64,000 nt of DNA from Bdellovibrio sp. KM01 (GTDB lineage: Bacteria; Bdellovibrionota; Bdellovibrionia; Bdellovibrionales; Bdellovibrionaceae). The position numbers and the translations under genes are program-made. Below the pieces are notes generated by a model. It saw only the letters and a list, made by a program, of their open reading frames with translations. It searched no databases and was not told the DNA's origin. The DNA lies in NCBI RefSeq assembly GCF_013752535.1, contig NZ_CP058348.1:2294001-2358000 (forward strand). Direction: 5' to 3'. Every line of letters starts with the position of its first letter. The stretch's first letter is position 1. This document shows, in pieces, positions 32,235-38,873 of this stretch.

Positions 32235-33203
32235 ATGAGTAAAAAATCATTATCTTTATATATAAAAAAATTTGCATTGTTGGCAGCAACAATGACGGTC
32301 TTTTTATGGCTCATGCCCACCCAGGCCGCCAAAAATGAAACTCCTCCGGACGATAAAACCACGCTGGAAGAAGACTTCATCAACAGTAACATCTATGTCT
32401 CGCGCTTCTTTGATAACATGGCGGACAGTATGGATCTGTTTTTGGCGGGACAACAGTATACCGAAAGACCCAATACCACATCAGCGGTTTTTGAAACAGC
32501 GTCGTACTATAACTCACTGGAGGGGTTAAGAAACGATCTAAGCTTTGACTTCTATTTACGTCTGCCGAATGTGGAAGAATACTGGCAAGTGACATTTACT
32601 TCCTATGACGAAACAGCCGAGCGTGGTGTGAGTCAGGAATACCTCAGAAATCAACCCCGTCAGCGTAATGCCGGGGCGACCTTCGGATTTTTCAGACAAC
32701 TGGGAAATGTCAGAACATCCTACCAACCCCGTATTTCGTTTTCTTTACCGCTTAAGATTTCTCACACTTTGACGTTTGAAAGCATCGTGGAAAAATCAAA
32801 ATCCTATCGGATCAATCCCAAGTTGCAATTTTACGCAGATGCGGACAAGGGAACCGGGATGTTCCAGGCACTGAATTTTAACTTTACGCTTTCTCGCCGC
32901 TTCAGTTTAACCTTCGTCAACGAGGGGGATTATGAAGACAGGATTGCCACTTATACGGTGACGAACGGTGTGGCCCTGGGGCAGTGGTTTAGCAAGATGT
33001 CGAGCATCTCTTACAATATTTTCTTTACGTCGAAAAATCGCCCGAATTACCACTTGTACTCGTACAACTTTTCAGCGGCCTTTAGTCAGATTTTATATAA
33101 GAATATTTTGGATTATCAGATTCAGCCCAATATCGATTTTTCTGAAGAGCATGACTTTGTCAGAAATCCGGGCGTCAATTTTCACTTGTATATCAGATTT
33201 TAA
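32235..33203 (+). CDS. Predicted outer-membrane protein, unknown function
   Basis: I use the ATG at 32235 rather than the TTG before it. The 322-residue product has a signal peptide (ending MPTQAA) and, from about residue 95, long amphipathic beta-strands with aromatic girdles ending in VNFHLYIRF, a typical barrel C-terminus. The N-terminal mature part is acidic (TPPDDKTTLEEDF). Family not recognised. It converges with the histidine kinase gene, overlapping by 4 nt. Confidence 0.6.
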   Translation: MSKKSLSLYIKKFALLAATMTVFLWLMPTQAAKNETPPDDKTTLEEDFINSNIYVSRFFDNMADSMDLFLAGQQYTERPNTTSAVFETASYYNSLEGLRNDLSFDFYLRLPNVEEYWQVTFTSYDETAERGVSQEYLRNQPRQRNAGATFGFFRQLGNVRTSYQPRISFSLPLKISHTLTFESIVEKSKSYRINPKLQFYADADKGTGMFQALNFNFTLSRRFSLTFVNEGDYEDRIATYTVTNGVALGQWFSKMSSISYNIFFTSKNRPNYHLYSYNFSAAFSQILYKNILDYQIQPNIDFSEEHDFVRNPGVNFHLYIRF

Positions 33204-35260
33204 ACCGAGGGCGTTATTTCGCTCTGGCGTTTTTCAAACTGCCCCAAAAAACCCATCAGCTTTTGAATCAAATCATGACGACGGATAGGCTTACTTAAAT
33301 GCGCATCAAAGCCCGCTGCCAAACAGCGATCACGCTCTTCTTTCATCGCATTTGCCGTCAACGCCACGATCAAGTTGGAGTACCCCTCTGAACGAAGCTC
33401 CATGGTCGCCTGGCAACCATCTTTGATTGGCATTTGGACATCCATCAAAATCACGTCATAGTTTTTAAGGCGCGCAGCCTGCACCCCTTCGTCACCGTTG
33501 CTTGCAATAGAAATCTTTGCGCCCGCACCTTCAAGGAAACGTTGAAGCAAGGCCTGAATGTCCGAAGAGTCTTCAACCAACAAGATTTCGCGCCCCTGCA
33601 AAGCAGTCGCAAAATCCAATGACGTGACATCCATGATCCTGATTTTGTGCTCGTTATCTTGTTCCGACAGATTCGTAAATACCGGTCCATTCTCAGGACA
33701 AATACAATCCACAGTCACCAGAAAGGAACTTCCCTTACCCAGTTCAGAATCCATCAATACCAAGTCTCCACCTAAACGACGAGCCAACGTGCGTGACAAA
33801 GCCAGGCCCAAGCCCGTGCCACCAAACTGGCGCGTATGAGAAGCATCGGCTTGCGTAAACGGCTGAAATAAAATTCCAGCTTGGGCTGGGCTGATCCCAA
33901 TACCGGAATCCGTGATCTCAAAACTTAGGGACTGATGAGTCTCGGATTTACTGACGCTTAAACGTACGAAACCCGAACTTGTGAACTTAATGGCATTGCC
34001 AATCAAGTTGGACAAAATCTGCGACAAACGAGTCGCATCGGATTTAATAAAACGAGGCACGGCCGATTCGATGATAACTTCAAACTGTACATCTTTGCTG
34101 GCAGTACGGGAATCAGCGAACAAACTCAGCTCACGCAAAAGTTCGCGCAAATCCACCTCACTGATTTCAAGCTCCACTTTACCGGCTTCGACTTTGGAAA
34201 TATCCAGGATGTCATCAATGATTCTTAGTAAATAGGTGCTGTTGGTGCGAACTTTCGCCGCCCAGTCCTGACGTTCAGCAACTGTCGAAGTCGAATTCGT
34301 CAACAGATCCGAGAAACCTACGATAGCTCCCAACGGTGTGCGAATTTCATGACTGACGTTCGCGATAAAATTCGTTTTCGCGCGATTCGCAGCCTCGGCC
34401 GCGTTTTTCATTTCAGCAAGATTTTTATAGAGCAGCGCTCTTTCGATATTTACCGCAAGTTTGTTCGCAAACTCTTCAGCCATCATCGCATCGACCGCAT
34501 CAAAATTGGCAGAACCCGGCGCGCGCGCCAAGGTCACACAACCAATGGTGTCGCCATTTTGTTTGATGGGCATGCAGATGTAAGAGCGCAACCCCACTTT
34601 CGTAAACAATGCAAAAGTGCGCGGCGAAACGGAAAGCATGCGAAACATTTCTGGCAGGATGTCTTCGTGAAAAACAGATGCGCCTGAGCGCAAAACCTTC
34701 AGAGGACTTAAAACATCGTCGGCATTATCAAAGCCGATATCTTGAAGCTCTTTTAAAAACGGCACGAGTGCGGGGTGCTTGTGAGCCACGGTGCCAGGCC
34801 CGACTCCTAAGTCTTCACGCAAATCTATGCGACACCAATCCGCCATATTTTCAATGGCTACTTCCGCAGCTGCAGTGATTACGGAGTTACAACACGCCGT
34901 TAAATCAAAATTCCTATCCAGTGATTTCAGTGTGGTTGCATAAAACGTCAAAAGGCGTTCGGCATAATAGTTTTCGCGCGTGTCGTGGAGATAGATCAAA
35001 AGATGTTCATTGTAGGGAGATGGCGCCAACACTTTTTGAACACGAATCATTTGGCGCAAAGAAGGATTTAAACGCGCCAGTAATTTATCTAGTTTGTGAT
35101 CGGCGGTCTCGTCTTCAAAACCAAGAAGGTCGCGGGCTGAATCGTTTAAATGCAGCACACGCTCATCCCGAGTCGTGATAAGAATCGGCAGATGCGTTGC
35201 AAAGAAGATGTGCTTCCACATCTCTGCTTCAATCTCCGAAAGCTGAATTTGACCGGCCAT
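33200..35260 (-). CDS. Hybrid sensor histidine kinase (PAS-GAF-HisKA-HATPase-REC)
   Basis: AGGG before the ATG at 35260 decides the start. The 686-residue protein has a PAS-like domain (about 10-100), a GAF domain (about 115-275), a HisKA domain with the phosphoryl-accepting His304 in SHEIRTPLG, an ATPase domain (about 410-520: NAIKFTSSG, DSGIGISPAQAG, GGTGLGLALS) and a receiver domain with Asp607 in LMDVQMP. No membrane segments are seen, so it senses a cytoplasmic signal, perhaps a ligand of the GAF domain. No output regulator is adjacent. Confidence 0.95.
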   Translation of the reverse strand: MAGQIQLSEIEAEMWKHIFFATHLPILITTRDERVLHLNDSARDLLGFEDETADHKLDKLLARLNPSLRQMIRVQKVLAPSPYNEHLLIYLHDTRENYYAERLLTFYATTLKSLDRNFDLTACCNSVITAAAEVAIENMADWCRIDLREDLGVGPGTVAHKHPALVPFLKELQDIGFDNADDVLSPLKVLRSGASVFHEDILPEMFRMLSVSPRTFALFTKVGLRSYICMPIKQNGDTIGCVTLARAPGSANFDAVDAMMAEEFANKLAVNIERALLYKNLAEMKNAAEAANRAKTNFIANVSHEIRTPLGAIVGFSDLLTNSTSTVAERQDWAAKVRTNSTYLLRIIDDILDISKVEAGKVELEISEVDLRELLRELSLFADSRTASKDVQFEVIIESAVPRFIKSDATRLSQILSNLIGNAIKFTSSGFVRLSVSKSETHQSLSFEITDSGIGISPAQAGILFQPFTQADASHTRQFGGTGLGLALSRTLARRLGGDLVLMDSELGKGSSFLVTVDCICPENGPVFTNLSEQDNEHKIRIMDVTSLDFATALQGREILLVEDSSDIQALLQRFLEGAGAKISIASNGDEGVQAARLKNYDVILMDVQMPIKDGCQATMELRSEGYSNLIVALTANAMKEERDRCLAAGFDAHLSKPIRRHDLIQKLMGFLGQFEKRQSEITPSV

Positions 35261-35430
35261 TTCGTCCCTCACATGAAATAAGGTTTAGTTTTACCTTATG
35301 GGATAGAGCGCCTCTAAAACTTATCTTTTGTATTATATTTTTTATACCGAAAAGTACGCATTTGCTTAAGCCCCGAGCAGTTACATTGCTAACCAGCAAG
35401 GGATCTAAACAAGTCTTTGAAAATATTGAA

Positions 35431-36255
35431 CTAAACACGTTTCAGAGAAGCCCCTAAAGCGAAAATGCTTTGCTGACTTTTTCCGTGCAAATACTCCTGA
35501 ACTCCCGCCAAAACCAACTTAAAAGAAGGCCCGACCTTCACCATCCCGGCATCCGTTTTTATCACATCTGTTCCTAGCAACTGATCTTCTGCTACCAGAA
35601 CTCGCTGATTGAAGTCCTGGGGGCCCAACTCATCCCGCTCGCCATAACGATTGAGTTCAATATTACGAACTCCAGACACCATAAACCCTGCGTGAGGTTC
35701 GGTGCTGACCACCCAATGCGCCTTCGCTCCTTCGGCGGTTCCCAGCAAAGAGTGCCCCGTACCGACAGCCCCAATCACGGCTGATACGGCAGCTCCCATA
35801 AACGCTGCAGCCCGCTGACCCAGGGAATGATAGTGACGGCGCTTTTGAAAATCAAAAAGCTGATCAAAACGAACACTTCCCGGTTGCTCGAGCAAAAACT
35901 TTTCGTAGTTGGGATAGATATTGGCCATGTCCTCTTGAAAAACTTCAGCACCCTGGGAGGTCAGAAACTCCACCAGGGAGGGCATAACAGTTTTTGGCAC
36001 GAACAATGTACAGCGAAGCCCTCGCTCTTTGCAGTAGTGAGCTAAAGAAACGGCTGTACTCCCCGCACTGACTTCAGAAATTATGGAGCCTTTTGCCACT
36101 CGTCCAGAATTAAAAAGAAAAGAGATCTCCCCTTCGACCATATGATCTTTCATAGAGCCGCCGGGATTTTCCCCTTCCAAAGAAGTAAAAACGCGGTTGC
36201 CGTCCCGAAGATTTAATTCGGGAGCGACAATTTCAACAATTCGAGACTGAGGCAT
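35431..36255 (-). CDS. Divergent cysteine-synthase-like PLP enzyme
   Basis: This 274-residue protein has the fold-type II PLP signatures in degenerate form: the Schiff-base Lys36 in NPGGSMKDH, an asparagine-loop equivalent SAGST (63-67) where OASS has SGNTG, the phosphate loop GAVGTGHS (162-169), and GPS (242-244) near the PLP nitrogen. It is shorter than CysK/CysM (about 300-320). Beta-replacement chemistry on serine-type substrates is likely, but the product is open (cysteine, 2,3-diaminopropionate or another amino acid). Its ATG shares one base with the stop of the adenylyltransferase gene upstream, so the two enzymes are made together. Confidence 0.8.
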   Translation of the reverse strand: MPQSRIVEIVAPELNLRDGNRVFTSLEGENPGGSMKDHMVEGEISFLFNSGRVAKGSIISEVSAGSTAVSLAHYCKERGLRCTLFVPKTVMPSLVEFLTSQGAEVFQEDMANIYPNYEKFLLEQPGSVRFDQLFDFQKRRHYHSLGQRAAAFMGAAVSAVIGAVGTGHSLLGTAEGAKAHWVVSTEPHAGFMVSGVRNIELNRYGERDELGPQDFNQRVLVAEDQLLGTDVIKTDAGMVKVGPSFKLVLAGVQEYLHGKSQQSIFALGASLKRV

Positions 36256-37106
36256 TAGGCAACAATCGGTTTATCAGCGTGTTTCAAGTTCTCAGGAATA
36301 TTCAAAGCGCGTGCTTTGTAAGACGCTTCAAAGATCGTCGTTTTCACTTGGGCCACATCCACGAAAATTCCGTTGGGAGAGTGCACAGTTTTACCCATAC
36401 CCACAACATTTTTCGCGATTTCCGACGCAGCTACCGCAGCCGAAGTTTCCCCACCAGGAGTGACAAACGGAATATAAGAGGAGCGATCCATTGCATGAAT
36501 CAACTGACCCCAGAGGTATGTCGGAACTTCTGGACAGATGAAGCGCAAGAATCGAGACAGATTTTCTTCATAAGGAAGTTTATCTGAAATCCCCGTTTGC
36601 TCAGCAAATGACGGAGTGTTTTTATTAAATACCACCACAGAACCAGAAAATCCCAAAGTCGCACAAGAGGCTACGGGGATTCCACGTTTATGAGCTTCCA
36701 CATTCAAAGCCAGCTTATCTTCCATGGCAAACAGATCCACCACGTCCACAACCCAGTCGACACCTTTTAAGAATTCATCCAAATTAGCTTTCTTAACGCC
36801 CTCAGGGAAAACTTTAATTTTCACAGCAGGATTGATCGCGCGAGCTTCCGCCAAAGAACACTCGTCCTTGCGCATACCAATAGTTGTTTCTTTCGCCATA
36901 CGCTGACGATTGATATTCGTTCTTTCGAAAGTATCCGGGTCAGCAATATGGAAATTTTCAAATCCCATACGAACCAGATTGATAAAAATTGAACCACCCA
37001 AACCCAAACCACCAACAGCGATTTTTGTGTTTTTCATTTTCTCAAGCTGGGCTTCTGTGAAAATGCCGATGCTGCGAAGAAATCTTTCTTTGTAATGTTG
37101 ATCCAT
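36255..37106 (-). CDS. Lone ThiF/MoeB-type adenylyltransferase (E1-like)
   Basis: AAGGAG before the ATG at 37106 decides the start; the product is 283 residues. It has the Rossmann glycine loop (VGGLGLGG, 31-38), Asp58, NINRQ (64-68) with the ATP-site Arg, and Asp124 in VVDLF. E1-like enzymes adenylate a C-terminal carboxylate, usually of a ubiquitin-like sulfur carrier (ThiS, MoaD) or a peptide (MccB). The two CXXC zinc pairs of MoeB/ThiF are absent. No ThiS/MoaD-like gene is visible nearby, so the substrate is unclear. It is coupled to the PLP gene, as ThiF-CysM pairs are in thio-metabolite pathways. Confidence 0.85.
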   Translation of the reverse strand: MDQHYKERFLRSIGIFTEAQLEKMKNTKIAVGGLGLGGSIFINLVRMGFENFHIADPDTFERTNINRQRMAKETTIGMRKDECSLAEARAINPAVKIKVFPEGVKKANLDEFLKGVDWVVDVVDLFAMEDKLALNVEAHKRGIPVASCATLGFSGSVVVFNKNTPSFAEQTGISDKLPYEENLSRFLRFICPEVPTYLWGQLIHAMDRSSYIPFVTPGGETSAAVAASEIAKNVVGMGKTVHSPNGIFVDVAQVKTTIFEASYKARALNIPENLKHADKPIVA

Positions 37107-37136
37107 GATGAGCTCCTTCAAATTATTTTTGAACGA

Positions 37137-37206
37137 AATAAAATTTTGTGTGCAACAACAATTTATTTATGCAGATAATCTGAAAGAAGACTAATAAAAT
37201 TTTATT
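37137..37206. promoter_or_regulatory. Divergent AT-rich promoter region with repeated AATAAAATTTT sites
   Basis: A perfect 14-bp palindrome AATAAAATTTTATT (37193-37206) lies 16 bp before the ATG at 37222. Its first 11 bases recur at 37137-37147, close to the adenylyltransferase start on the other strand. The spacing is 56 bp. This pairing between divergent genes suggests a shared regulator of both transcripts; it could also just be promoter AT-richness. Confidence 0.4.
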
Positions 37207-37221
37207 TAGCTTTAACTCGAT

Positions 37222-37992
37222 ATGGTAAAAGCGGAGCCCATCTTGAAAAACCTCAATGATTTATTTCAGCTTGTGATTTTAGATTCTCCCATCGAAAACT
37301 GGGAAAATAGTGACACTCAAAATGTCTTCGCAAAAATGGTGACTTTAAAAAAGAAAGGCTATGAAAGCTGCTACCAGCAAGGCGTTCTACCTGTGGACAC
37401 TTCTGATTTTTTTGCGACGCACGTGATGCTTTTTGCAAAAGAAGACAACCAGGAATTAACCCCCGTAATGGGATACAAAACAATATCTCTTAACAAGTGC
37501 CGTGAATTCAATCAGACTTTTCCGGGCCTGGCGCTAGTGACCAACGCAAAAATGCCTGAGCATATTGAAGTCCTGAATGGCATCATCTCTCGCTGTGAAA
37601 AAGAAAATCGCAACCTGGCTTACCTAGGATCGTGGACAAAAAATCCACACTACGACGTCCCTGCAAATATAAACTTAAAAGACGCTTTTCGCGCCTTTTA
37701 CCGCCAAGTCTATCGTGAGCAAAACGTGCATGAAGTTGTGATCGGGGGCACTCTTCGTTTTCGTACCGAAAAATTATTTTTCGAATTAGGTCACAGACCC
37801 CTCGAAGCAAACGGCGCTCCCCTTTCACACATCCACGTTGCCCACTTAGTGAAGGAACCAGTGTTGGTGATGCACTCGACGAAATTTAACGACGATGCGA
37901 CTGTAGCTGCCGAAAAAATGTGGGCTGAAGTTTGGAACAACCGGGTGGAAATTGGTGCGGCAGAGATTAAGAAAATGCCTTTGGCGGTTTAG
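37222..37992 (+). CDS. Unrecognised protein, possibly a GNAT/N-acyl-amino-acid-synthase-like acyltransferase
   Basis: The 256-residue product has no signal peptide or membrane segment. A strand pattern (HVMLFAKEDNQELTPVMGYKTISLNKCREF) and the later EVVIGGTLRFRTEKLFFELGHRPL recall the GNAT-like fold of autoinducer and N-acyl-amino-acid synthases, but no acetyl-CoA P-loop is convincing, so this is a guess. The ATG at 37222 has no ribosome-binding site; a TTG at 37243 has GGAG before it. It is divergent from the adenylyltransferase/PLP pair and ends overlapping the V4R-like gene by 4 nt. Confidence 0.55.
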   Translation: MVKAEPILKNLNDLFQLVILDSPIENWENSDTQNVFAKMVTLKKKGYESCYQQGVLPVDTSDFFATHVMLFAKEDNQELTPVMGYKTISLNKCREFNQTFPGLALVTNAKMPEHIEVLNGIISRCEKENRNLAYLGSWTKNPHYDVPANINLKDAFRAFYRQVYREQNVHEVVIGGTLRFRTEKLFFELGHRPLEANGAPLSHIHVAHLVKEPVLVMHSTKFNDDATVAAEKMWAEVWNNRVEIGAAEIKKMPLAV

Positions 37993-38873
37993 TGTTTGTG
38001 ATTTTGAAAAGTAATTTCGAAAACGCAGGCTTGCGCTCCCTTGTGAGCGCAGCACTTTTCGACTACACGGGCCTGAGCTTGACCCAAATATAATGGTGCA
38101 GATGCCATCATGCCCGCCTTCAAGTGGCAGACATGTTCATTGCCCAGATGTTTTACGCGCATTTCATCTGCGACGTCTCTTTCCGAAGTCACTTCTAACA
38201 AAGCTCCCTGCTCATCAAGACTCAAAAAGCGATAACGGCAGTTCTTTTCATAAAACTTAAGACAATCACTCCACATGTGCTCGATGATTTCTCGGGCGCT
38301 TGCCATCTGCCCATAATGATCACCCAAGATTGTGGTGGCATTACCAACGTACGTGTAAAGCCCCATGGCAAAAAAGTCTTTGGCTTGAAAACGACGTTTC
38401 GCCAAGTAAGTGAGAGTATCAGAAATCACCCGCATGCTGATCGTCGCAAAGGGATCCTGCAAAACCGACTCGCTTAAGCCCAAGTGCTTTAAAATATCAA
38501 AGCGCAACTTCCAACCGTGATATCTTTCGATATATTCAAAAGTGGTGATCGTCGTGCGACGACGGCCATAATTTGCATAGGTATAAGGTTCAGGCAAAGC
38601 CCAGGATGACTTTTGATCCGCGCGAATTTGCAAATCGTGATAGTCGACTTCCCCGAAAAGAATCTGCTCGGGCGAATAAAGAATCTGATCGGAAATACGA
38701 ATCAACGAATGCTCAGATAGCTTGCGCTGACCAGTGCGGATAAGAGTGTAATCCCACCAGCTCAGGTCCAAAAGCTCCTGCCACTGATTCTCTGAAAACT
38801 GAGAAACCTGGCGGATGCGCTCCAATGTATCGAAGGACAAAGACTTGCCCATTCGTGCAACCGTTGTATTCAT
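37989..38873 (-). CDS. HTH and V4R-like sensor/regulator
   Basis: GGAG before the ATG at 38873 sets the start; the product is 294 residues. The N-terminal part (about 10-80) looks like an XRE-type helix-turn-helix (FSENQWQELLDLS... RKLSEHSLIRISDQILYSPEQILFGE). The C-terminal part ends in HLKAGMMASAPLYLGQ followed by KCCAHKGAQACVFEITF, which resembles the V4R/4-vinyl-reductase domain, a small-molecule-binding fold in which C-terminal Cys can bind a cofactor or metal. It could regulate the neighbouring ThiF/PLP/acyltransferase-like genes in response to a ligand. This link rests on adjacency only. Confidence 0.65.
   Translation of the reverse strand: MNTTVARMGKSLSFDTLERIRQVSQFSENQWQELLDLSWWDYTLIRTGQRKLSEHSLIRISDQILYSPEQILFGEVDYHDLQIRADQKSSWALPEPYTYANYGRRRTTITTFEYIERYHGWKLRFDILKHLGLSESVLQDPFATISMRVISDTLTYLAKRRFQAKDFFAMGLYTYVGNATTILGDHYGQMASAREIIEHMWSDCLKFYEKNCRYRFLSLDEQGALLEVTSERDVADEMRVKHLGNEHVCHLKAGMMASAPLYLGQAQARVVEKCCAHKGAQACVFEITFQNHKH

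Follow-up and report, generated by a model that had tools for sequence, protein, structure and literature searches.

The closest described counterparts of the locus analyzed here are the acyl-oxazolone clusters OxzAB (Pseudoalteromonas rubra), TyzABC, and TrzAS (Mycobacterium tuberculosis), in which an N-acyltransferase of the FeeM/LuxI kind works with a ThiF enzyme that cyclises N-acyl amino acids with adenosine triphosphate (ATP), acting on the carboxylate and needing no carrier protein (PMC10404671, PMC12856293). In TrzS, the conserved motif residue Asp217 is needed for cyclisation (PMC12856293). We analyzed a stretch of 64,000 nucleotides from Bdellovibrio sp. KM01 (NZ_CP058348.1, positions 2,294,001 to 2,358,000; hereafter the window, numbered from its first base), in which a putative remote FeeM-type gene, here called ACYL, lies between a regulator gene encoding a helix-turn-helix (HTH) and a V4R domain and an overlapping gene pair for a ThiF-like protein and a fold-II pyridoxal phosphate (PLP)-dependent enzyme of the PALP family (Table 1). 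We put at about even chances that this locus represents one form of a modular system in the Bdellovibrionota that combines biosynthesis with a receptor and makes an acyl-amino-acid product. Such a product would probably be sensed via the V4R protein, by a working analogous to that of LuxI/LuxR but with components belonging to neither family.

To assess how the genes travel together, we compared gene order in 60 related genomes, surveyed the phylum in 369 genomes of Bdellovibrionota, and took locus statistics from 51 ACYL loci. An HTH-V4R homologue was found within 1 kb of ACYL in 46 of the 51 loci and within 5 kb in 49, with the two genes convergent in 41 and in tandem in 5. ThiF lay within 5 kb of ACYL in 30/51 loci; PALP was present in seven, every one of which also contained ThiF, and an alpha/beta hydrolase was present in 24, never alongside PALP. 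The other main group consisted of 19 loci with an S-adenosylmethionine-dependent methyltransferase near ACYL (L111-L136, e.g., L124:1417-2202). When 50 loci were tabulated, 28 had ThiF only, 18 methyltransferase only, one both, and three neither (Fisher p 1.3e-9, uncorrected for kinship); that is, ThiF and the methyltransferase nearly exclude each other. The constant core is thus ACYL plus the HTH-V4R gene, while the ThiF/PLP pair, which a first-pass annotation of this DNA had put at the center, is a swappable accessory. The same annotation had also proposed that a pathway for a small molecule or a modified amino acid is encoded here together with a dedicated sensor, and this idea is supported. 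Overall, the arrangement appears to be a single synthase-receptor core whose finishing enzymes can be exchanged: ThiF and PLP enzyme (as here), ThiF and hydrolase, or methyltransferase. A methyltransferase in place of ThiF also hints that the products include a second chemical class.

The gene order ThiF-ACYL-V4R was kept in five of the 60 relatives (G012, G005, G015, G024, and G025), and was accompanied by the PLP gene in all of these except G024. In G005 and G015 the flanks outside the block differ, and only the module and a neighboring histidine kinase gene are held in common. Since the order is kept despite different flanks, the arrangement is more than chance, and the genes, whose separation in other genomes would have spoken against the first annotation, were found linked. 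By profile search, the ACYL family occurs in 86/369 phylum genomes, representing 48/182 genera; within the genus it is patchy (5/24 genomes), and no homologues were found in plasmid and phage collections.

We then considered the identity of ACYL, which had first been read as a divergent, possibly GNAT-like gene. The window protein gave no Pfam, NCBIfam, PHROG, or PDB match, and the family as a whole gave no PDB match even at E 10 in phmmer and profile searches. Among the 51 homologues, the most frequent Pfam match was FeeM (PF21926), although this was seen in three members only (best E 0.0066) and is weak alone, while Autoind_synth (PF00765) gave no match up to E 1 in the window protein or any of the 51. 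When the ACYL profile was compared with FeeM homologues of the same phylum using hhalign, however, a score of 41 was obtained (E 2e-5), compared to a maximum of 22 in 120 column shuffles, 28 in 80 shuffles of ten-column blocks, and about 20 with six unrelated neighbor families. Residues D59, D62, and H67 are nearly invariant and resemble the motif that contains Asp45 and Asp48 in LuxI, a likeness that we treat as a lead only. Judged from these profiles, ACYL is likely, though short of proof, to be remotely homologous to FeeM/LuxI-type N-acyltransferases, in keeping with the GNAT-like assignment. FeeM proteins are plentiful in this phylum and often come with PilZ; unlike them, ACYL lacks a PilZ domain, is paired with a V4R regulator, carries an -AA tail, and falls below the FeeM cut-off.

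The ThiF-like protein scores 120.4 bits against the Pfam ThiF model (PF00899; cut-off 28.1), and its adenylation residues R11, N64, R67, K80, and D124, together with the glycine loop G33-G37, are invariant in 11 homologues. It can thus be placed by sequence in the ThiF/E1-like superfamily, with likeness to ThiF/MoeB and to PRK08223/PRK14851 proteins. In contrast to ThiF/MoeB, and as first annotated, it has no CXXC among its three cysteines and no carrier gene: no open reading frame (ORF) of at least 40 aa ending in GG was found between positions 30 and 45 kb of the window. Its best NCBIfam match is PRK08223 (178 bits), and the protein is below every curated NCBIfam cut-off. By the CXXC, carrier, and NCBIfam criteria, the protein does not classify as a MoeB/ThiF sulfur-carrier activating enzyme. 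D124 occupies the expected place of the ThiF adenylation Asp, its equivalence to TrzS Asp217 being read from the motif, unaligned.

In a tree of ThiF proteins, the PALP-type ThiFs formed one fully supported clade. The group nearest to them, placed there with weak support (85/51), comprised a ThiF-nitroreductase fusion and ThiFs whose genes adjoin true FeeM genes, whereas a far-off branch held the lone ThiF paralogue that these genomes carry on the chromosome. The fusion (L003, from an Alphaproteobacteria metagenome-assembled genome) was the sole relative that the genome collection yielded, and the gene after it matches GNAT, FeeM, and Autoind_synth. Since the ThiF relatives sit in a FeeM/oxazolone-type layout, a missing carrier is to be expected here.

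Next to ThiF, the PLP gene begins within the ThiF stop codon, as the first annotation had observed: a single A (base 36255) is common to the ThiF TAA and the PLP-gene ATG (minus strand GCC-TAATG-CCT). In relatives the two genes overlap by 1-4 bp (G012, G005, G015, G184, and G205), with a 3-bp gap in G025. Like cysteine synthase, CBS, and SbnA, the PLP enzyme has a fold-II PALP domain with the catalytic (Schiff-base) Lys in N-P-x-x-S-x-K-D, here NPGGSMKD and invariant in seven homologues. It differs from them in its short length and low scores and in its loops, where the altered SAGST (for SGNTG) noted at first reading is joined by GTGHS (for GTGGT). Scores with the models for cysteine synthase, CBS, and SbnA (TIGR01136, TIGR01137, and TIGR03945) were 47-58 bits, compared to cut-offs of about 345-600; with cysteine synthase (TIGR01136/TIGR01139), the value was 55.8 bits versus 344. 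Since these scores are far under the curated cut-offs and two ordinary CysK/CBS-like enzymes are encoded elsewhere in the genome, the sequence marks this protein as something other than a housekeeping cysteine synthase. Its occurrence in seven loci only, always adjoining and mostly overlapping ThiF, suggests a role in providing or modifying the amino acid used by ACYL and ThiF, which is the least supported step of the scheme below.

The ACYL proteins share a characteristic C-terminus, ending in AA in 30/51 and in [AVS][AG] in 43/51, compared to 12/386 other long ORFs of the same loci; the window protein ends in AV. The transfer-messenger RNA tag of the genome is GNDYALAA. Since the tail is present in loci with and without ThiF, it is more likely, by its motif, an ssrA-like degron of the ClpXP type than an E1 substrate. 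Endings in -AA or -VA are also frequent among the PALP-clade ThiF proteins, and a tail resembling a degradation tag may therefore be common to two pathway enzymes.

The convergent gene had been described as an HTH plus a V4R-like ligand sensor, and this holds at the family level: a V4R match (PF02830) was obtained for 12/35 homologues (best 4.8e-9), and the N-terminal part of the family profile matches a Cro/C1-type HTH (PDB 3op9, E 2.7e-8). We therefore regard the protein, from these family matches, as a V4R-domain regulator with an HTH. In one genome of the same genus with the same surroundings (G022), the equivalent of ~35414-38004, comprising PLP, ThiF, and ACYL genes, is missing, while an intact 293-aa V4R regulator (71% identical; L181:6684-7568) is kept together with the histidine kinase gene and, at the opposite end, the FKBP and HAD genes. 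No ACYL was found elsewhere in G022 by profile search. The dS of this solo receptor is saturated. By analogy, the lone regulator resembles LuxR solos, and it could be a relic. Modules of the hydrolase type repeatedly contain, close to the V4R gene, one or two additional small proteins with an XRE-type HTH (91-113 aa; 9-11 loci, e.g., L097:4269-4571 and L110:4324-4599).

By the defining tests applied to its sequences, the module is not a member of the FeeM family or the oxazolone clusters. Like the latter, it combines an N-acyltransferase of the FeeM/LuxI kind (remote here) with a carrier-free ThiF; unlike them, it includes a PLP enzyme or hydrolase and a dedicated HTH-V4R receptor. With LuxI/LuxR it shares a synthase-receptor gene pair, a solo receptor in a relative, and a putative GNAT-like synthase, but its receptor is XRE-V4R rather than LuxR, it has extra finishing enzymes, and its synthase lacks an Autoind_synth match. 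The best reading, by analogy, is that the module may function much as an oxazolone-type pathway for N-acyl amino acids does, coupled to a sensing loop like that of LuxR.

Gene linkage, overlap, module swapping, and the tail motif are established; for product chemistry, the PLP role, and signaling, we infer the following course. ACYL, by its remote FeeM homology, would move an acyl group from acyl-coenzyme A or acyl-acyl carrier protein onto the amino group of an amino acid, of which the PLP enzyme might make or alter the beta-position. ThiF, judging from its residues, the tree, and the gene pairing, would then adenylate the carboxylate of the N-acyl amino acid and close an oxazolone-like head without a carrier, as do OxzB, TyzB, and TrzS; in other loci, the methyltransferase that replaces ThiF might cap the carboxylate instead. 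The near-constant pairing with ACYL, and the relative keeping the receptor only, suggest that the V4R domain serves as the binding site for a neutral, lipid-like product and that the regulator controls the divergent promoter and probably others. Finally, the conserved ssrA-like -AA tail, if read by ClpXP-type proteases, would keep the synthase short-lived.

Several observations weigh against this scheme. The grouping of PALP-type with FeeM-associated ThiFs has weak support (85/51), the FeeM Pfam cut-off is reached by neither the window ACYL nor any of its 51 homologues, and the profile comparison of ACYL with FeeM gives no clear counterpart to the LuxI catalytic Glu. An AlphaFold model of ACYL from the single sequence was unusable (pLDDT, the predicted local confidence, 34), leaving the fold without model support. 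The module contains no nitroreductase-type flavin desaturase, which is present in all known oxazolone clusters, and the window regulator alone matches Pfam V4R at 6.3e-05 (23.4 bits), under the curated 31. Export, ligand, and regulated target of the module are putative only.

What the product is for can be read in two ways. It is possible, at somewhat less than even chances, that these genes represent an undescribed cell-to-cell signaling family of predatory and related bacteria, with a degron-tagged FeeM/LuxI-like synthase, an XRE-V4R receptor, exchangeable finishing enzymes, lineage-specific signals, and solo receptors. Alternatively, the module may make a lipid-like natural product (an antibiotic, surfactant, or membrane lipid), with V4R as a feedback or substrate sensor and no cell-to-cell signaling. 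All of the enzyme evidence, i.e., the FeeM profile match, the ThiF tree, and the gene linkage, fits this too, and for the N-acyl amino acids and oxazolones already described, the roles are either unknown or other than signaling (PMC10404671). We nevertheless hold it to be rather unlikely, since an ACYL-V4R core that is kept while finishing enzymes change, and a receptor in G022 that outlasts the loss of three enzymes, both fit signaling better.

The first-pass comparison was with E1/CysM sulfur transfer, in which ThiF would activate an unlinked sulfur-carrier and the PLP enzyme would use the thiocarboxylate for cysteine or a thio natural product; kinship of the PLP enzyme with CysK/CysM/CBS and the ThiF/PLP gene overlap are in its favor. 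It is nonetheless improbable given the missing carrier and CXXC, a PLP enzyme far under cysteine-synthase cut-offs with an altered substrate loop, the many ThiF loci (most of them) that have hydrolases and no PLP gene, and nearest ThiF relatives that adjoin FeeM synthases or sit in ThiF-nitroreductase fusions. The first interpretation thus survives in its pathway with a sensor, its GNAT-like gene, and its absent carrier, and finds support neither for its sulfur-transfer comparison nor for its choice of core. Were ThiF instead an E1 acting on protein, it could adenylate the conserved small C-terminus of ACYL, as ThiF/E1 enzymes adenylate C-terminal carboxylates and most ACYL proteins end in small residues; the same tail on ACYL from loci without ThiF, and -AA/-VA ends on the PALP-clade ThiFs themselves, which make it look like a degradation tag, render this very improbable. 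We give the least credence of all to ordinary metabolic enzymes grouped by chance or serving housekeeping amino-acid metabolism: ThiF and PALP are indeed very large families, but this explanation is contradicted by the order kept with different flanks, the mutually exclusive finishing genes, and the patchy presence of ACYL in the genus.

No description of an ACYL-V4R system was found in the open literature, most subscription journals being outside the search, and no LuxI/LuxR-type signal for Bdellovibrio was found described in the open literature searched. If true, the signaling interpretation would offer a concrete lead on the means by which these predators perceive each other or coordinate, would add a new class of acyl signals, and would put to a clear test the idea that N-acyl amino acids are generally finished by ThiF enzymes that work without a carrier. 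The solo receptor of G022 makes loss or eavesdropping directly testable.

Table 1. Features of the ACYL locus and its surroundings (window positions)
Feature	Position	Strand	Size	Remarks
Hybrid histidine kinase (N-terminal sensor, HisKA, HATPase, receiver)	33200..35272	-		Doubtful part; adjoins PLP gene; Pfam of G015 homologue
PLP-dependent fold-II (PALP) enzyme P0001	35431..36255	-	274 aa	Pfam PALP 4.7e-22
Lone ThiF/E1-like adenylating enzyme P0002, without zinc CXXC	36255..37106	-	283 aa	Pfam ThiF 9e-35
Divergent intergenic region ThiF/ACYL	37107..37221		115 bases	AT-rich; shared promoter region
Imperfect palindrome AAATAAAATTTTGT-N5-ACAACAATTTATTT	37136..37168		Arms 14 nt	86% complementary; speculative HTH-V4R operator
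ACYL (acyltransferase-like protein) P0003	37222..37992	+	256 aa	Putative remote FeeM-type N-acyl amino acid synthase
ACYL C-terminal Ala-Val	37984..37989	+		ssrA-like degradation-tag motif
XRE-type HTH + C-terminal V4R regulator P0004	37989..38873	-	294 aa

At the sequence level, the ACYL start codon is uncertain (ATG 37222 or a later TTG), and the 3' ends of the convergent ACYL and HTH-V4R genes overlap by 4 nt (37989-37992). In the region across which ACYL diverges from ThiF (37107..37221), candidate promoter hexamers were no better than shuffle level. The palindrome within it is, speculatively, a possible operator of the HTH-V4R regulator; as a common operator it was not recognised in distant loci.

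Four genomes of the genus carry the histidine kinase gene together with the module, and G022 has retained it as well. As a fixed part of the module it was rejected, because G025 has an aconitase in its place and its N-terminal half was not found beside the G024 module. It is possibly a second sensor.

FeeM-PilZ proteins of 400-460 aa are common in the phylum (e.g., L164:4542-5756 in G027 and L058:328-1713 in G047), and this joining suggests control of N-acyl amino acid synthesis by cyclic diguanylate (c-di-GMP). We also observed proteins of ~1170 aa with PilZ, FeeM, GAF, and adenylate/guanylate cyclase domains (L162:1177-4716 in G024 and L163:1622-5110 in G090), with similar ORFs of 1160-1184 aa in G091, G093, and G094, in which an N-acyl amino acid synthase domain is fused to cyclic-nucleotide signaling domains.

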